A DNA stretch of 27,104 nt, taken from a virus. Below, one piece after another: positions 128 through 23,242 of this stretch. The stretch covers positions 1 to 27,104 of the IMG/VR virus record IMGVR_UViG_3300020578_000359, one strand, 5' to 3'. The notes beneath the pieces are model-generated. The model searched no databases, was not told the DNA's origin, and was given only the letters and a program-made list of their open reading frames with translations. A program made the translations under genes and the position numbers. Numbering within the stretch: position 1 is the first letter of the stretch; each line of letters opens with the position of its first letter.

Positions 128-850
128 TTACATTGGTAGCGTTGATTTGCTTAAATTAAAGCGTTGCAAACTCTTTTCTGCTAAGAATGACATACGATCA
201 TAATGCTCATTAAAGAATTCTCTTATGCTAATAGATGGGTTAACTTTTAGTTGTGTCATAAACAATTCTTTTAAAGAAAATTCTTGATTTTGCATATCTT
301 GATAATGCATTTTATATGCAGTATCTTCATAAACAGTATTCATAGCAGTTCCGACCATACTATAATTATGGATTGGAAATCCAAACATATGCTTTCTATT
401 TTCAATAAAACGCACCGTATTGCATTGTAAAATATGATTCATATCTCGCCAATACAAAAATGCTACATAAAACCAAAGCTTTGGCTTTATCTTATCGTGA
501 AGATTTTGCATTAATCCAAACAATGTTTCCATATCTGGATTTATGAATAAATTGGGATTTGAATTTTCTATTGCAGAAATAACTTCGGGAACATCTACTG
601 TGCTACCTTCAATAATTTCGTCATAAAATTTATCATTAATGATGCAACCTATGGCACATTTATAATTATTTTTACTACCACGATACCTACAATCTCCTAG
701 AAATAAATCTTCTGATCGTTCATTTTGAATCACTAAATGCTTAATGATTGCATCAAAAACTTGTTCAAAGTTGTTTACCGGGATATATTGATTTTTAATT
801 TCTTCATTTGATTGATTTGATTGATTTGATATCAATCCGTATATTTCCAC
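128..850 (-). CDS. CAIGC-motif phage protein, long paralogue (240 aa)
   Basis: Function unknown. Residues about 54 to 69 carry the signature CRYRG..CAIGC, followed by a D.FYDE.IEG segment and an LQNLHD motif. This pattern is shared with the products of 5405..5803 and 5791..6195, so the three are paralogues of a small phage family I recognise only as conserved hypothetical. Here the domain is extended by about 115 C-terminal residues that the other two lack. The start is GTG at 850, with GGAG six bases upstream. An overlapping ATG at 852 opens a frame that stops after six codons. The N-terminus contains an SNQSNQSN stretch encoded by a 9-bp repeat. The three spaced cysteines could bind metal, but no partner histidines are conserved, so this is inference. 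Confidence 0.8.
   Translation of the reverse strand: MEIYGLISNQSNQSNEEIKNQYIPVNNFEQVFDAIIKHLVIQNERSEDLFLGDCRYRGSKNNYKCAIGCIINDKFYDEIIEGSTVDVPEVISAIENSNPNLFINPDMETLFGLMQNLHDKIKPKLWFYVAFLYWRDMNHILQCNTVRFIENRKHMFGFPIHNYSMVGTAMNTVYEDTAYKMHYQDMQNQEFSLKELFMTQLKVNPSISIREFFNEHYDRMSFLAEKSLQRFNLSKSTLPM
807..830. repeat. 9-bp in-frame microrepeat (tttgattga)
   Basis: Two exact copies of a 9-base unit and two thirds of a third copy lie inside the start of the 128..850 gene. They encode the Ser-Asn-Gln repeat. Because the unit is three codons, copy number can change without breaking the frame. It lies outside the cysteine motif. Confidence 0.6.
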
Positions 851-892
851 ATTATTCTCCTTTTGTTATTTTTATTAATAATTATTTACTAT

Positions 893-1510
893 TTATACTT
901 TGCAACCAACTCTAATATCGCCAAAATCATGACCTAATATAATTTCTTCGTTCATAATTAAAGTTAGAGCTTTTACTGCTGTTTTATAATCTATAGAATT
1001 AAAACTAATTCCAATAGCATCATTTAGCCAATCGTCACAATCATCTGGATCTATATCTGTATCTTCTGATACTATTTTTAAATCAGGGAATTCTTTAAAG
1101 TGGTGAAATGCTAAATATTTCCAAATAGAATCTTCATCATTGTAATATATTTTTTTACCTTGACCTTCTGATAGTCCTAAAAATTTATTTGCTTCTTCTT
1201 CAAAAGAAACTTTATATTGATAGCCGCCAGTTTCTTTTTTCAACCATTCAGGCGTTTGCCAATCATTTGCTATTGCTACGGCAAATCCTGCAACACAACC
1301 TACTGAATTACAATTAAATATCTCTGTGGTTTGAACAGAAGACAACATATTGGTATTATACCAACTTGCTTCTCTTGTACCGTTTACAATTAACTTAGTG
1401 TAATCATCATTATCTATAGTCAACTGACCAATAAAAGAAGACATATTAAATCTGAATTTGCCATCTTTTTCAATTGCGTCAATTAGTTTTTGGAAGTTAT
1501 CTTTATTCAT
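893..1510 (-). CDS. CNSVGCVAG-family phage protein, copy 1 (205 aa)
   Basis: Conserved hypothetical. It begins MNKDNFQKLIDAIEKDGKF, has the core FNCNSVGCVAGFA with two cysteines four apart, then FLGL.EGQGKKIYYN..DSIWKYL, and ends in SIDYKTAVKALTLIMNEEII. All these blocks recur in 1507..2145 and 2412..3167, so the three form a local paralogue array. Related proteins with a C[NG]TxxCIAG core occur in many phages with no assigned function. The ATG overlaps the TGA of the preceding gene (ATGA), indicating translational coupling. Confidence 0.82.
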   Translation of the reverse strand: MNKDNFQKLIDAIEKDGKFRFNMSSFIGQLTIDNDDYTKLIVNGTREASWYNTNMLSSVQTTEIFNCNSVGCVAGFAVAIANDWQTPEWLKKETGGYQYKVSFEEEANKFLGLSEGQGKKIYYNDEDSIWKYLAFHHFKEFPDLKIVSEDTDIDPDDCDDWLNDAIGISFNSIDYKTAVKALTLIMNEEIILGHDFGDIRVGCKV

Positions 1511-2145
1511 TGCATTTTCCTTTCATTAATTTTAATGTCTGCTCCATATTCACCCAGTATAATTTCTTCATTCATAATCCTGGTCAAAACATCTACTGCT
1601 GTTTTGTAATCTATAGTAGAAAAATCAATTTCTAAATCAGAATCATCCCAATCAAAATTATCAATATCACAATCATCAGAATTAATATAATCAAGATCTG
1701 GATATCTATCTGGTTCGTAGTATCTAAGATATTTCCAAACACAATCATCTGTATTGTAATATAATTTATTTCCTTGTCCTCTGCTTAAACCAAGAAATTG
1801 ATTTGCTTCTTTTTCAAAATCCGGTGCCCAATTTTGATAACCTTGAAATAATTGTTTATCATAAGTTGTTGGCTTAATCCATTCAGGAGTTTTCCAATCA
1901 TTTGCTAATGCTGTAGCAAATCCAGCAATACAGCCTACTGAGTTACAATTAAATAAATCAGTAGTTTCAACCCAATCTAATTGACGAGCAGTAAAATCAC
2001 TTGCTGCATCAGTGCCATTAATAATAGAACTTTCAAAATGTTCTGAATCTAATGACAATTTGCCAATAAAACATTGCATATTAAATTTTGCTTTACCATC
2101 AAAATTGATGGCATCAATTACTTTCCGAAAGTTATCTTTATTCAC
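1507..2145 (-). CDS. CNSVGCIAG-family phage protein, copy 2 (212 aa)
   Basis: Middle member of the three-gene paralogue array. It carries FNCNSVGCIAGFATALANDW, FLGLSRGQGNKLYYN, VWKYLRYYEPDRYPDL and a terminal STIDYKTAVDVLTRIMNEEI. I chose the GTG at 2145 rather than the in-frame ATG at 2166. The GTG gives a start of NKDNF matching both paralogues, has AAGGAG six bases upstream, and leaves only an eight-base overlap with the gene at 2138..2410. The segment before the last block is rich in Asp, as in copy 1. Function unknown. Confidence 0.82.
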   Translation of the reverse strand: MNKDNFRKVIDAINFDGKAKFNMQCFIGKLSLDSEHFESSIINGTDAASDFTARQLDWVETTDLFNCNSVGCIAGFATALANDWKTPEWIKPTTYDKQLFQGYQNWAPDFEKEANQFLGLSRGQGNKLYYNTDDCVWKYLRYYEPDRYPDLDYINSDDCDIDNFDWDDSDLEIDFSTIDYKTAVDVLTRIMNEEIILGEYGADIKINERKMQ

Positions 2146-2410
2146 TGTATTCTCCTTGTTTTTCATTGTTTTGTGTATAATTACTTAATTTAATTTCTAA
2201 GTCGCAACACCAGTCTGCAATCTTAAAAACTACTTCAGCAAAATCTTCATTAAATGGATATGAGCCACCAAATGTTAAATCGTGCAGTATATTTCCAGTT
2301 CCTTCCCAAGTGTTAGCCAATTCCATTGCTGCACCTTTAAATTTTTTGAGATCTCGTAAAAACAAACCTCTTTCTTTTATAAATCGTTTAAACTGTTCTT
2401 CTTGATCCAT
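2138..2410 (-). CDS. Hypothetical protein (90 aa)
   Basis: Small acidic protein whose central part, GTGNILHDLTFGGSYPFNEDF.., followed by a helix ending in ADWCCDLE, resembles short phage proteins of unknown function that share an 'L..SYPF..[SD]F.E' core. This is a memory-level resemblance only. AAGGAAG precedes the ATG by a normal distance. The gene is inserted between copies 2 and 3 of the CIAG-type array, overlapping copy 2 by eight bases and following copy 3 after one base, so all four are probably cotranslated. Confidence 0.72.
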   Translation of the reverse strand: MDQEEQFKRFIKERGLFLRDLKKFKGAAMELANTWEGTGNILHDLTFGGSYPFNEDFAEVVFKIADWCCDLEIKLSNYTQNNEKQGEYSE

Positions 2411-2411
2411 T

Positions 2412-3167
2412 TTATTCTTCCTTTGTTTTTGGTGGATTTACTTTTATTTCTCCATAATGAGAACCGATTACAATTTCTTCATTTAATATTCTAGTTAAAA
2501 CATCTGCTGCGGTTATATAATTAATGCTTCCAAAATGAATATCCAATTCACAATCAGTCCAGGAGCAACTTCTATACCTTTCCAAATTTTCTTCCCTAAG
2601 AATTTCTTTATCTACATCGCCCCAACCACACTCATCTTCATAATCTTTTTCCCATTGCCATTGCAAAGATGGATATCTTTCAGATTCGTAATACCTTAAA
2701 AATTTCCAAATACTATCCCCTCTGTTATAATATAATTTTTCTCCTTGTTCCGGCGTTAATCCAAGAAATTTATTAGCTTCATTTTCAATACGAGTTGAAA
2801 ATGATCTAAGTTCAGACGAATGTTGATTTCTATGAAAAAATACAGAATTAGGATTTAGCCAACTAGGAGTTTTCCAATCATTTGATAATGCCATAGCATA
2901 TCCAGCAATACAAGCTACAGTATTGCAACTAAAAATATTTGTAGTTGTTATACTGCTACTTGTTTCTGGTTCATATTCACTAGCAAGAAATTTATTATTA
3001 AACTGACCTTGTTTTTCTAAATCAGATAAAGTTTGAAACTCAAAATCGTATGAAAAATTATCAATATCATCTTGAGAAAGATCAGAAATATATGCATGCA
3101 TATTAAATCTAAACTTCCCTGTAGTTTCAATTTCACTAATTAATGTTTTAAAATTTTCTTTATTCAT
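2412..3167 (-). CDS. CNTVACIAG-family phage protein, copy 3 (251 aa)
   Basis: Longest member of the array. It has the shared start MNKENFKTLISEIETTGKF, the core FSCNTVACIAGYA, the FLGL.PEQGEKLYYN..DSIWKFLRYYES block and the terminal SINYITAADVLTRILNEEI. It differs by two insertions: about 30 residues before the cysteine core and about 25 residues (EDECGWGDVDKEILREE region) before the last block. The order of conserved blocks implies a single domain with variable loops. The ATG has AGGAG upstream. Function unknown. Confidence 0.82.
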   Translation of the reverse strand: MNKENFKTLISEIETTGKFRFNMHAYISDLSQDDIDNFSYDFEFQTLSDLEKQGQFNNKFLASEYEPETSSSITTTNIFSCNTVACIAGYAMALSNDWKTPSWLNPNSVFFHRNQHSSELRSFSTRIENEANKFLGLTPEQGEKLYYNRGDSIWKFLRYYESERYPSLQWQWEKDYEDECGWGDVDKEILREENLERYRSCSWTDCELDIHFGSINYITAADVLTRILNEEIVIGSHYGEIKVNPPKTKEE

Positions 3168-3177
3168 TGCTGTCTCC

Positions 3178-3357
3178 TTAGACTAATTTTTTTATAAATA
3201 GGATAATATCTTTAATTGTTTTTGTATTAAGTATTACTTCATTATGGTTTTGAGCAATTCGCCACGGAAACATAACACCCACAAAATCTTGTAATTCTAT
3301 AATATAATCAATCAATTCTTCTTCTAATTGTTTTGGGGTTCGGCTATCCGTATCCAT
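3178..3357 (-). CDS. Small hypothetical protein (59 aa)
   Basis: A 59-codon frame starting MDTDSRTPKQLEEELIDYI and ending in IKDIILFIKKLV. AAAGGAG lies about six bases before the ATG. The ATG shares its A with the TAA of the upstream 49-aa gene (TAATG), and the TAA stop lies next to the AGGAG of the following gene. Gap-free packing and the good ribosome binding site support it. It looks like a small mostly helical soluble protein. No family recognised. Confidence 0.7.
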   Translation of the reverse strand: MDTDSRTPKQLEEELIDYIIELQDFVGVMFPWRIAQNHNEVILNTKTIKDIILFIKKLV

Positions 3358-7752: not shown

Positions 7753-8088
7753 TTATGAGTTTTGATATACTTCAATGTGATCAATTATGTTATTGATTTC
7801 ATCTTGATTTAGACTTATTGTATCTCCATTATCATCACTTTTGGCAAATACAACATCGCCTACAATAAATCCTATTATTCGTTTTTGAAAATGACCATAA
7901 CTTGTTGCAAAACGATTAAATGGCAATTCCAAATTTATTCCATCTTCATTACAATACATTACTATGTTATCATCAAGATAAACTGGTTCAATACATCCTT
8001 TAACTGCTGCTTGAAGAGTATCCAATGTTATTTGTTTTTCGTTTATTATTTTCCAACTATCGTCAGCTCTCATTAATATTGCTTCCAT
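7753..8088 (-). CDS. DUF3846-like protein (111 aa)
   Basis: The layout ITLDTLQAAVKGCIEPVYL, DDNIVMYCNEDGINLELPFN, RFATSYG, then GFIVGDVVFAKSDDNGDTISL matches what I know of DUF3846. In that family an N-terminal helix leads into a 'V.L.D..VMY.NEEG.....P.N..A' core and a 'GDV.F.....DG....L' end. The family is common in actinophages and plasmids and has no known function. AAGGAG precedes the ATG. It is the first gene after the tRNA-like and hairpin locus, so its transcript probably starts after that terminator. Confidence 0.75.
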   Translation of the reverse strand: MEAILMRADDSWKIINEKQITLDTLQAAVKGCIEPVYLDDNIVMYCNEDGINLELPFNRFATSYGHFQKRIIGFIVGDVVFAKSDDNGDTISLNQDEINNIIDHIEVYQNS

Positions 8089-8117: not shown

Positions 8118-8215
8118 AAAAAAAGCATCAAGTTATAATAGTATAAAAAAATATTAAAAATATACAAATTATATTAAAAGACATGAAAGGGAGTTAATGT
8201 CTTAACTTGATGCTT
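8118..8215 (-). ncRNA. Long inverted repeat with nested C-rich hairpin and T7 tail: terminator or small RNA
   Basis: A perfect 13-base inverted repeat (8123..8135 with 8203..8215) encloses about 67 bases. Inside, AGACAT (8179..8184) and ATGTCT (8197..8202) form a second hairpin whose minus-strand loop is TAACTCCCTTTC. On the minus strand the outer stem ends directly in seven Ts (8124..8118), the form of an intrinsic terminator. The large loop is unusual for a simple terminator. CTCCC in an exposed loop could pair with GGGAG-type ribosome binding sites, as some bacterial small RNAs do. The structure is seen directly. Small RNA function is inference. Confidence 0.55.
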
Positions 8216-8218
8216 AGT

Positions 8219-8287
8219 GCTTCTATTAGGTATTGAGCCTAAAACTACAAATGTAAAATTTGTCGTTATACTTTTAACTATAGAAGC
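8219..8287 (-). tRNA. tRNA-like cloverleaf with UUA anticodon (putative ochre suppressor)
   Basis: On the minus strand 69 nt fold as a full cloverleaf with only Watson-Crick stems: acceptor GCTTCTA/TAGAAGC, T8 A9, D stem GTTA/TAAC with loop AAAGTA, G26, anticodon stem ACAAA/TTTGT with loop TTTTACA, variable AGTT, T stem TTAGG/CCTAA with loop CTCAATA, and discriminator A. T33, A14, A21, T55, C56 and A58 are as expected. The loop reads anticodon TTA, which would decode UAA. Odd features are a six-base D loop without GG, C at 37, C instead of T at 54, and no encoded CCA. It starts eight bases after the stop of 8296..8748. It may be a working suppressor tRNA, a decayed tRNA or a tRNA mimic. Confidence 0.6.
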
Positions 8288-8290
8288 TAC

Positions 8291-8307
8291 CGTTACTATT
8301 CGTAACG
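8291..8307 (-). other. Perfect hairpin spanning the stop codon of 8296..8748
   Basis: CGTTAC and GTAACG form a six-base stem with a five-base loop across the TAG at 8298..8296. It lies four bases from the 5' end of the tRNA-like element, so it could help separate or process the transcript. It is followed in frame by TAA, giving tandem stops. Confidence 0.4.
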
Positions 8308-8748
8308 AATTACTGCTGTTTTTTCAATTAGTTCTTTACCATCAAAATACCATTGCCACATTAAATTATCTTCCCCCACCCAATTTATATAGCTTCCTGT
8401 ATTTATAAATGGGGCAATTGCTTTAAAGAATAAATCTTCTTGACCAATTTTGCTTGCATAAGCTAGATAAACAAGATTTCCTTCTTCATCACGATTGTAT
8501 TCAAATCCCAATGCTTCTAGAATATCCAAAAATGTTTTACAAGTTTCTGGATAATTCCAATCCATCCAAGAAAACCATTTATGTTGATCCCATTCATTGC
8601 CATTTACATATTGAATATCTTTACCATAAGCGCCGCCGCGTTTAATATCATTATTATTATTAAGCGCACACATTGCTTCGTAACACAACTCAAAGTTTTC
8701 TTTCTTAATAAACATTGAGTTTTCTGTTATATTTACATAGTATCCCAT
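8296..8748 (-). CDS. Conserved MGYY-type phage protein (150 aa)
   Basis: Starts MGYYVNITENSMFIKKENF and carries KRGGAYG, WFSWMDWNYPETCKTF, LEALGFEY, GNLVYLAYASKIGQEDLFF and INWVGEDNLMWQWYFDGKEL. I recognise this block order from a widespread phage protein with a WMDxNYPETC centre and a GQEDLF..IAPF end. No function is assigned. The near-complete block set and typical length suggest an intact gene. A GGGG site lies seven bases before the ATG. It is followed by tandem TAG TAA stops and the tRNA-like element. Confidence 0.78.
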   Translation of the reverse strand: MGYYVNITENSMFIKKENFELCYEAMCALNNNNDIKRGGAYGKDIQYVNGNEWDQHKWFSWMDWNYPETCKTFLDILEALGFEYNRDEEGNLVYLAYASKIGQEDLFFKAIAPFINTGSYINWVGEDNLMWQWYFDGKELIEKTAVIRYE

Positions 8749-8769: not shown

Positions 8770-9330
8770 TTATTTAAACGCCCAGGGTTTAGCACCATCA
8801 ATATCGTAAAGATATTTTGCAACTTTCAGATTGCAGTCAACATTAAGCAAACCATCTAAACTAGTTCCGCAGATTTGTTTAGTTAATGTTTTCCAACAAC
8901 TATTGATTTGTACTAAACCACGATCAATAGACCCATTTTTATTTAAAGTCCATATCACATTGCCGGCTTTATCATATTTAGCATTAATTGCTTTTTCATT
9001 ACAACCACTTTCTCTCCAAGCAATATATGAAAAAAGCTCAACAGGTAATCCAAATTCAATGAATTTGTATTCCCATTGAGGGCATCTTTTATTCAAATCC
9101 TTGGGGATTTGTTGTTTGATTGTTTTAGGTATTACTATCTCTTCTGTTGTTTCAACAGCTTTATCAATAACATCTAGTTTTGCTAAAGGCTGCATAGCAA
9201 CATAATTTATTTTTACATTTGGAATATTTTTGCTTCCATCAGCCAATACTGATGGATTACTAAAAACTATTAATAAACTTACATAAGCAATTGCAATAAT
9301 ATATCCGAGTGTTTTCTTATACATACTCAT
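8770..9330 (-). CDS. Exported SLT/lysozyme-like muramidase (186 aa)
   Basis: Probable peptidoglycan-cleaving lytic transglycosylase. The C-terminal domain has YIAWRESGCNEKAIN with the likely catalytic Glu107, DRGLVQINS (136 to 144) and a terminal KPWAFK. The helix-E-S, GLxQIN and PW order is typical of the SLT/goose-lysozyme fold. Residues 1 to 30 are a signal-type sequence: basic start, hydrophobic run 9 to 24, and a possible cleavage site after SVLA. Start ATG 9330 has GGAGG four bases upstream. The cysteines 83, 110, 145, 154 and 166 could form disulfides outside the membrane. It may be an export-dependent endolysin or a virion-associated muramidase. The 42-aa hydrophobic protein two genes upstream is a possible partner. 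Confidence 0.8.
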   Translation of the reverse strand: MSMYKKTLGYIIAIAYVSLLIVFSNPSVLADGSKNIPNVKINYVAMQPLAKLDVIDKAVETTEEIVIPKTIKQQIPKDLNKRCPQWEYKFIEFGLPVELFSYIAWRESGCNEKAINAKYDKAGNVIWTLNKNGSIDRGLVQINSCWKTLTKQICGTSLDGLLNVDCNLKVAKYLYDIDGAKPWAFK

Positions 9331-9446
9331 TTCTCCTCCATTTAGGTAATGTTTTGTGCTGCGACACATTAAATATCTATTTAGCGAAAAACGAAAGCAA
9401 ATCTACAACTCCTACTTACGCTTTTACTTATTATTGTTCTATAGTT

Positions 9447-21263: not shown

Positions 21264-23003
21264 TCAGAGATTGTCTAGCGTAAAATCAAAATTGCCATCA
21301 ACTTGTTTTTTGGCCGGATAAGTTGGGGCAAATTTTCCAGCATTATTATTATACAGGGATACTGTGCCAAAATCTTCTAAATCATCATATTTTTCTGAAT
21401 CAATATCAAAATTTAATATTTCTAAATCTATTTCATTATCTATCATAATATTTGAAGCAGCAGCAAATACTGAGCCGGCTAATGCGTCAGCCATATCTTT
21501 AGAACCATTATTTGGGTGATCAATTCTATTGTTAGAAAACAATCTCAATTTTAACAATTCATTTTCAACCAAATGATCCTCCCAATACCCGCGTAATCTA
21601 GTATCATATATTGCTGTCATTAAAGTATCATAATCTGTTTTTTTCACGCTATGAAAATCTGCATTTACTCCTAATGATCTAAGACTTTGAATCATTTCAA
21701 CAGATTGCCATCGATCAAAAGTAACTAAACCAACATCAAATCTTCGGCACAAATCAATAATCATTTGTCTAACAGATGCAAAATTAATTTCTTCACCGGG
21801 GTCGGCTTGCCAGGAATATATTAAATCAACATTTATCACTGGTAATTTCTCAATACCCATAGATGTTTTAATTTCTGTTATGCCGGAACAATGCGTCATA
21901 CATAAAGCCGATCTATCTCTTTTTAATCCTAGATCAACATGAATAAATCTTTTATGGCCATCTGAATTATTAAACCACGGATAAAAGCGCCCTTCTTCGT
22001 CTAAAGGATTGTCTGCATAATTAAAAGCTTTTCTAACTAAATTTTCATCTCTGAAATAAGCATCTTCCATATTTGGAGGATCGCATTCAAATCTTGCTTT
22101 TGCTTCAATTGGGTTTCTAACATATTCTGATTCTAATTGTTCTCTTTTAATTGTGGGATTAACTTCCCAAGTAGCAGCTTTAATTGTCCAAGTCTTTGGT
22201 TCTTTTTTTTCTCTTGAATTGTAATATCTTTGCTGAATAAAGTCTCCTTTATATCTAGGGAATGACAAAAGAATAACTTTGCCAACTTCAGGGAAACGAG
22301 ACATCACGGATAATTTACTCATATTATAAATTGCAGATGCAGAACCTTTTGCTCTAGTATCTCCTTTCAATTCAGAATCGGTTTTAAATGCAGCAATTTC
22401 GTCTAAAACAATTGTTAATACTTCGTAACCTTCCCAACCTTCACTTTCTGAGTGACCAGAGAATAATCTTACCGGGCGAGAAAAGAAAAATATTTCCGAC
22501 ACTCTTGGCTCAAAACCAACGCCATTAAAAAATGGAGAACCTAATAATAAATTTTTTAATGGTTCAAAAAATACTCTTTGAGCTTGCTGCGCATTTACAG
22601 CCAGATTTAATAAATCTATATAGACACCGTGAGCTTTCCCATAATAACCCAAAGGATCTCTCAAACAATGTAGTAAATATGACGCATAAGCAATAGATAT
22701 TCTGCTACAATGGTCTTTACCACTACCCTTACCGAGCATACAAATGACTTCATTATCTGTATAATTATTGTAATATTGAATTCCTTTTTCTTCACCCATC
22801 AATTTTATTAAAGTAGGCTTCCGAAAGATTTGAGTACTATGTTTAACAATTTCTTTTTGAATATCAGAAAGGTCTGGCAGTCCAAGATATTTTTTATCTT
22901 TGACAAAAACTTCAATAGAAACTGGTTCTTCTACAAGTTCATCTTGTTTCAAAAGTCTATCAAAATCTTCAAATTCAAGATTAACGCCAAGATAATCAGA
23001 CAT
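21264..23003 (-). CDS. terL: Terminase large subunit (579 aa)
   Basis: DNA-packaging motor and headful/cos nuclease. Walker A is GKGSGKD at 91 to 97 after a Q-motif-like IQKEIVKH. Walker B with catalytic Glu is LTIVLDE (196 to 202). The C-terminal RNase H-like nuclease has acidic residues in HVDLGL (Asp357), VTFDRWQ (Asp430) and SKDMADALAG (Asp503, Asp506). Length is in the normal range and all motifs are present. The ATG shares its A with the TAA of the repeat-encoded frame (TAATG), and terS lies just upstream. Unusually, it is followed by a glycosyltransferase and not by a portal gene. Confidence 0.95.
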   Translation of the reverse strand: MSDYLGVNLEFEDFDRLLKQDELVEEPVSIEVFVKDKKYLGLPDLSDIQKEIVKHSTQIFRKPTLIKLMGEEKGIQYYNNYTDNEVICMLGKGSGKDHCSRISIAYASYLLHCLRDPLGYYGKAHGVYIDLLNLAVNAQQAQRVFFEPLKNLLLGSPFFNGVGFEPRVSEIFFFSRPVRLFSGHSESEGWEGYEVLTIVLDEIAAFKTDSELKGDTRAKGSASAIYNMSKLSVMSRFPEVGKVILLSFPRYKGDFIQQRYYNSREKKEPKTWTIKAATWEVNPTIKREQLESEYVRNPIEAKARFECDPPNMEDAYFRDENLVRKAFNYADNPLDEEGRFYPWFNNSDGHKRFIHVDLGLKRDRSALCMTHCSGITEIKTSMGIEKLPVINVDLIYSWQADPGEEINFASVRQMIIDLCRRFDVGLVTFDRWQSVEMIQSLRSLGVNADFHSVKKTDYDTLMTAIYDTRLRGYWEDHLVENELLKLRLFSNNRIDHPNNGSKDMADALAGSVFAAASNIMIDNEIDLEILNFDIDSEKYDDLEDFGTVSLYNNNAGKFAPTYPAKKQVDGNFDFTLDNL

Positions 23004-23242
23004 TATTGTAATTCCAGATTGCTACCAATAGGGGAAAACAGTAGTCTCAAATTCTGGTCAACGCCAGTAATGGCAGAAAACAGTGGTCTCAAATTCTGGC
23101 CAACGCAGGTAATGGCAGAAAACAGTGGTCTCAAATTCTGACCAACGCAGGTAATGGCAGAAAAGGGTGGTCTCAAATTCTGGCCATTTATTATAATGGC
23201 AAGAATACCTGGTCTCAAATTATGAGACATTTTCTTCCCCAT
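23003..23242 (-). CDS. Repeat-encoded frame between terS and terL (79 aa)
   Basis: The 42-bp tandem repeat stays open in this frame and yields 14-residue repeats of the form GQNLRPLFSAITCV. ATG at 23242 (or 23230) lies inside the end of terS, and the TAA overlaps the terL ATG as TAATG. Its translation could therefore carry ribosomes from terS to terL. No domain is recognisable. The repeat may exist for DNA reasons, with the frame a by-product. The in-frame length of 42 (14 codons) and the exact coupling argue for real translation. Confidence 0.45.
   Translation of the reverse strand: MGKKMSHNLRPGILAIIINGQNLRPPFSAITCVGQNLRPLFSAITCVGQNLRPLFSAITGVDQNLRLLFSPIGSNLELQ
23031..23228. repeat. 42-bp tandem repeat between terS and terL, candidate packaging (pac/cos) site
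   Basis: The core gtctcaaatt starts at 23044, 23086, 23128, 23170 and 23212, exactly 42 bases apart each time. The first three units are nearly identical; the fourth diverges in its second half and the fifth is partial. 42 bp is four helical turns, so the cores face the same side. The last core forms GTCTCA/TGAGAC around the terS stop. Position between terminase genes fits recognition by the small terminase. Not CRISPR-like, since there are no spacers. Confidence 0.75.

Follow-up and report, generated by a model that had tools for sequence, protein, structure and literature searches.

An arginine tRNA-derived cloverleaf with a UUA anticodon in a phage contig may be kept for its shape rather than for efficient stop decoding

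Codon supply, suppression, and evasion of defences that cleave tRNAs are the usual explanations for tRNA genes in phages. In MALAT1/mascRNA and in the tRNA-miRNA genes of murine gammaherpesvirus 68, a tRNA-shaped RNA lies by a conserved RNA and is kept for cleavage, not for decoding. Among described phage systems, mycobacteriophage tRNAs carry anticodon-loop changes that let them escape anticodon nucleases while the anticodon and decoding are kept (PMC10264068), and recoded phages that use code 15 encode suppressor tRNAs (tRNA-Sup), often adjoining theta ribozymes (PMC10879173). Here, we analyze a tRNA-like cloverleaf with a stop-reading anticodon in IMG/VR record IMGVR_UViG_3300020578_000359, whose 27,104 bases we refer to as the window; all window-wide results cover these 27 kb.

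The window has a GC content of 30% and 53 called genes, which lie on the minus strand. Among these is a gene for a WhiB-family regulator (Pfam PF02467), and the top matches of its large terminase among annotated phages are Streptomyces phages, at ~41% identity; together, these two features make an actinobacterial host likely. WhiB-like genes have been reported from freshwater Nanopelagicales phages (PMC10202952). A host search through TerL in genomes returned a single short matching contig, binned as Flavobacteriales, which we regard as uninformative. Away from the tRNA, an ORF that overlaps the terminase start (23003-23242, minus) codes for a tandem repeat of a short peptide, QNLRPLFSAIT, likewise repeated but shorter in a related phage (genome G001), and three consecutive paralogous genes (893-1510, 1507-2166, and 2412-3167, within 128-3167, minus) have the motif FNCNSVGCVAGFA in common and occur in fewer copies in relatives. 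The locus itself consists of the following features.

8770-9369, transglycosylase-like gene, preceding the 150-aa gene
8296-8748, minus: upstream gene of 150 aa without a Pfam match, ending in TAG TAA; in relatives, tRNA-Arg comes after its homologue
8218-8287, minus: tRNA cloverleaf, positions 1-73, anticodon UUA (ARAGORN and Rfam RF00005)
8269-8274, minus: D loop AAAGUA, 6 nt, without GG; 2 nt shorter than in orthologues (AAUGGAUA)
8247-8263, minus: anticodon arm ACAAA-UUUUACA-UUUGU, with A-U at 29-41 and 30-40, where most orthologues have G-C
8254-8256, minus: anticodon UUA within the loop UUUUACA (8252-8258), UCU in all orthologues; C37 at 8253
8231-8237, minus: T loop CUCAAUA (C54 U55 C56 A57 A58), UUCGAAU or UUCAAGU in orthologues
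8123-8215, minus: long hairpin directly 3' of the tRNA, from its fold and its conservation in L236 and L001
8204-8215 and 8123-8134, minus: arms of that hairpin, AAGCAUCAAGUU (8215-8204) pairing with AACUUGAUGCUU (8134-8123), followed by a T run at 8122-8116
8178-8203, minus: inner hairpin AAGACAU-UAACUCCCUUUC-AUGUCUU, from its fold
7753-8088, minus: downstream gene for a DUF3846 protein; its homologue follows the tRNA in L001 and L236

A first-pass annotation, made from the letters of the window, had described a complete cloverleaf with four perfectly paired stems and had proposed an ARAGORN run, which bears it out: the sole tRNA called in the window is a tRNA-Stop with anticodon TTA (8217-8287, minus). 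Rfam model RF00005 gives a full-length match at 8218-8287 (minus) that takes in all four arms and scores 54.8 bits against a gathering score of 29 (E = 2.1e-9). The stems comprise 7, 4, 5, and 5 pairs, of which 21 of 21 are Watson-Crick, and the listed invariant residues T8, A14, A21, T33, T55, C56, and A58 are all present, as is A73; the gene lacks an encoded CCA. That annotation was right in calling the short D loop (6 nt) and C37 atypical, and C54 and the lack of GG in the D loop are further oddities that it did not mention. In place of the conserved elbow (G18 G19 with T54 T55 C56), the window tRNA has A18 G19 and C54 T55 C56. In a set of 127 tRNAs extracted from phage loci, both related and unrelated to the window, the window tRNA alone has C54 and is the only one to combine C54, a pyrimidine at position 37, and a GG-less D loop; other phage tRNAs in this set have a pyrimidine 37 or a GG-less D loop alongside ordinary anticodons. 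The A-U at pair 30-40 is likewise absent from every other aligned sequence.

Two other observations concern unusual loops and antisense matches. In L196, a 187-kb phage contig (IMGVR_UViG_3300008267_000004), tRNA-Cys and tRNA-Ile have AG for GG in the D loop and GC for TC at T-loop positions 55-56; judged from these residues, the elbow pair 18-55 may have been exchanged. On the antisense strand of the window tRNA, an Rfam match to the Plastid-ycf2 5'UTR (30.8 bits, below the threshold of 65.7) was dismissed because this model matches the antisense of a tRNA remnant in a related phage as well (L089, described below).

The site of the cloverleaf is that of an arginine tRNA. A search with the upstream gene (8296-8748) found 13 related loci, and tRNA-Arg(UCU) comes after the upstream-gene homologue in 10 of the 13, with another RNA element intervening in some; the remaining three comprise L250, whose contig is truncated, and the distant relatives L246 and L249. 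In L001, which belongs to G001 and whose terminase is 90% identical, and in L236, a canonical tRNA-Arg(UCU) lies between homologues of the same two genes (8296-8748 and 7753-8088) and is followed by the same hairpin, but the anticodon there is UCU and that of the window tRNA is UUA. Among the tRNAs compared, the window sequence is nearest to the Arg(UCU) tRNAs of the L099/L125 type (52 of 73 alignment columns), with which it has the acceptor, D, and T stems and the 4-nt variable loop in common. From the tRNA-Arg(UCU) genes at this site in relatives and from this nearest sequence, we conclude that the window tRNA is a derivative of tRNA-Arg(UCU). Like the tRNA-Arg(UCU) genes of the same phage group (L099, L125, L164, L001, L236, and others), it has no encoded CCA and a terminator-like hairpin after it, and its genomic site is identical in L001 and L236; it differs from them in its UUA anticodon, C37, C54, GG-less 6-nt D loop, and A-U-rich anticodon stem. 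Descent from tRNA-Thr(UGU) was considered on account of a 7-nt D loop, an AGUU variable loop, and the same acceptor stem, and ranks second; it is less likely, given a global alignment score of 27.0 versus 35.5 for Arg and the Arg identity of the site in relatives. In L251, to which the downstream gene is most closely related, gene order differs and there is no tRNA at that place. A blastn search of the locus or the tRNA against annotated phages gave no useful match; in IMG/VR, an exact pattern of the D arm plus anticodon arm had 0 matches, and a looser lineage pattern with the UUA loop hit 84 stretches, 0 of which were tRNAs.

The manner in which this tRNA has diverged is the reverse of that in its kin. 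Canonical Arg(UCU) tRNAs of the group differ at 24% of stem sites and 6% of sites in the three loops; in the window tRNA, the stems are held and the loops are altered. Compared with L099, there are 5 changes at 42 stem sites, all of them pair preserving: at two pairs of the anticodon stem, G-C has been fully replaced by A-U, and one acceptor pair has gone from G-U to A-U. The other changes fall at unpaired sites, with 4 of 7 nucleotides altered in the anticodon loop and again in the T loop, and with a D loop that is both altered and 2 nt shorter. In total, 16 substitutions and a 2-nt deletion have broken 0 pairs, and the anticodon and T loops remain 7 nt long. Across ten sequences, 14 of the 21 pairs have changed on both sides (0 of 500 shuffles); the stems thus covary, the opposite of the broken and uncompensated stems in relatives that the first-pass annotation had named as evidence against a tRNA. 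Its view that chance is an unlikely origin is upheld by this covariation, by the Rfam score, and by the same-site orthologues.

Two nucleotides beyond position 73 of the tRNA, the long hairpin begins. The first 38 nt of this hairpin (its 5' half) are 89% identical to L236 and L001, compared with 58% for the tRNA. The loop of the inner hairpin is ACTCCCTTTC in the window and ACCCCCTTTC, TATCCCCTTTC, or TTCCCCCTTTC in relatives. A hairpin loop of the form C(U/C)CCUUUC behind tRNA-Arg is also present in L001, L236, L089, and L238, with a shorter form in L095, L098, and L244. This loop is complementary to Shine-Dalgarno-like GAAAGGG, found for example ahead of gene 8296-8748, and by that complementarity could be a small RNA seed; pairing with gene 8296-8748 specifically is unsupported, the Shine-Dalgarno sequence being different in L236.

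Many related phages have, immediately 5' of tRNA-Arg(UCU) and flush with its first base or nearly so, a compact pseudoknot RNA built from two hairpin loops that pair with one contiguous stretch ending at the tRNA. Its copies include the following.

L099, 1573-1641
L089, 1432-1500
L088, 1432-1501
L164, 6718-6786
L125, 9353-9421
L095, 1573-1645
L244, 3207-3279
L171, 7185-7270

The pseudoknot has 22 pairs, 96% of them standard, and 13 pairs have changed on both sides (0 of 500 shuffles). A model of it searched against 822 kb gave 20 matches, all adjoining a tRNA-Arg or a tRNA remnant; the model search found none in the window, and the element matches no Rfam family and could be an undescribed RNA family. 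L089 holds a second pseudoknot copy (within 1167-1282) that is followed at once by a tRNA remnant (1238-1282) of acceptor and T arms only, which scores 24 bits with RF00005 and is, by its predicted anatomy, a minimal RNase P-like substrate unable to decode. With hairpins or pseudoknots beside its tRNAs and with this remnant, the group therefore has tRNA-shaped units that adjoin conserved RNAs, at least one of which cannot decode.

The label "putative ochre suppressor" given at first pass is literally right, in that the anticodon is complementary to UAA, but nothing in these 27 kb supports it as a functional reading. As had been reported, TAA is the most frequent stop (one of the ends then listed, 3357, is actually the start side of ORF 3178-3357), and it terminates 35 of the 53 called genes in the window (66%), compared with 47 of 68 (69%) in G001 and 19 of 30 in L236, both of which carry tRNA-Arg. 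TAA is followed by another stop within 10 codons in 19 of 35 cases in the window and 26 of 47 in G001, and by an open extension of >50 codons in 8 of 35 and 8 of 47, respectively. A search for in-frame TAA in conserved genes, proposed at first pass, found none within the 27 kb: tblastn of relatives' proteins against the window detected no TAA-interrupted homologous gene, and the only stop-crossing alignment falls where a small repetitive ORF ends. The window has neither in-frame TAA in conserved genes nor avoidance of TAA as a terminator, the marks of a stop-recoded phage. The option of stop readthrough, or of a changed code, thus draws no support from these 27 kb, in which TAA is not depleted, lies inside no conserved gene, and is accompanied by no excess of back-up stops; the UUA anticodon is best taken as a stop-facing label, and active ochre suppression has no support in the window. 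AGA is as frequent in the window as in G001 (21.3 versus 20.4 per thousand), and therefore the need for a tRNA-Arg(UCU) persists.

We tentatively favor, with somewhat less than even confidence, the explanation that this tRNA-Arg-derived cloverleaf owes its retention to its shape, in the simplest case as a substrate that host tRNA-processing enzymes cut to trim the neighboring RNAs, and not to efficient stop decoding. The tRNA-Arg(UCU) gene would have lost arginine decoding in the window lineage while a tRNA-shaped RNA continued to be made, its four helices held by selection and its loops, the anticodon included, free or altered. Excision of this transcript-terminal cloverleaf by host tRNA-processing enzymes would define the 3' boundary of the upstream mRNA as well as the 5' boundary of the conserved hairpin RNA that comes next; the UUA anticodon would be a by-product rather than a working stop reader. 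We infer transcription, processing, the handle role, and the absence of efficient suppression from the sequence. In favor of this explanation are the arginine orthology of the site, the pair-preserving changes, the conserved hairpin, the unmoved stops, and the L089 remnant. Against it, the acceptor and T arms are most of what a pure handle would require, yet the D and anticodon helices are intact, and the invariant residues are kept as in a working tRNA; the double changes in the anticodon stem and the intact helices suggest that the entire tRNA form is important. The mimic listed among the first-pass options, or a role in shape only, is plausible and comes near to the favored explanation. That the tRNA has turned into a nondecoding processing handle, with the adjoining conserved RNA (the CCCUUUC-loop hairpin and, in relatives, also the pseudoknot) as the real product of the locus, we consider rather unlikely.

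The retained D and anticodon helices and invariant residues keep alive a weak but working ochre suppressor, charged and letting a small share of ribosomes pass UAA to yield C-terminal extensions or fusions, which we regard as unlikely, although it is the likeliest of the rivals. The exact UUA anticodon comes with U33, eight TAA-ended genes are open for >50 codons past the stop, and a pyrimidine 37 or a GG-less D loop, each found in phage tRNAs with ordinary anticodons, is in itself no bar to function; the charging enzyme would presumably be LysRS or GlnRS, our guess from U35 and A73 under Escherichia coli identity rules. Such a suppressor is, however, hard to reconcile with an undepleted main stop, with the absence of TAA within conserved genes of the 27 kb, and with extensions and back-up stops no commoner than in the Arg-carrying relative; moreover, both bacterial release factors recognize UAA, C37, a pyrimidine beside A36, is expected to weaken decoding, and, as 3 of the 64 anticodons read stops, drift would yield one by chance ~5% of the time. 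An early-decaying tRNA-Arg pseudogene whose helices are intact by accident fits the noncanonical anticodon, position 37, T54, G18, and D-loop length, the Rfam score of 54.8 bits compared with 65 to 77 for the Arg tRNAs of its kin, and the single known sequence. Yet, when 16 random substitutions were placed on the L099 form, all 21 pairs remained standard in just 5.5e-5 of 400,000 trials, a figure that serves as a guide because L099 stands in for the true ancestor and the UUA variant is represented by one sequence. Because random mutation so rarely keeps every pair, and with two anticodon-stem pairs changed on both sides and two loops still at 7 nt, plain decay, another option of the first-pass annotation, is disfavored, and we hold the pseudogene to be quite improbable. 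Least probable of all, to our minds, is a decoy or escape variant shaped by host enzymes, either nucleases or modification enzymes, whose targets are the anticodon or elbow loops of tRNAs, in which the helices are recognized and the loops change to hold or to evade the enzyme. Changes are indeed concentrated in the loops while the helices are held, and there is precedent in the mycobacteriophage tRNAs that evade anticodon nucleases (PMC10264068), but those variants retain their anticodon and decode, and the window tRNA, having lost its anticodon, would not restore arginine decoding.

Set beside known systems, the window tRNA resembles the suppressor tRNAs of recoded phages (PMC10879173) in being phage encoded and having a stop anticodon, but its stop is UAA, most genes of the window end in TAA, no recoded gene is seen, and no ribozyme has an Rfam match anywhere in the window. 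With the nuclease-escape tRNAs (PMC10264068), it has in common loop changes on intact stems, and it differs in having changed the anticodon itself along with two other loops. A "suppressor tRNA" predicted in a viral contig does not alone imply recoding; in this case, it is a converted arginine tRNA in a window whose stops have not moved. That every helix has been kept while the amino acid meaning was lost points to selection on shape, a role rarely tested in phages. The likeness to MALAT1/mascRNA and the tRNA-miRNA genes of gammaherpesvirus 68 is that of a tRNA shape beside a conserved RNA, here recognized from anatomy and conservation, and the difference is that those systems are known from eukaryotic nuclei; if the handle is real, it would be their counterpart in a bacterial virus.
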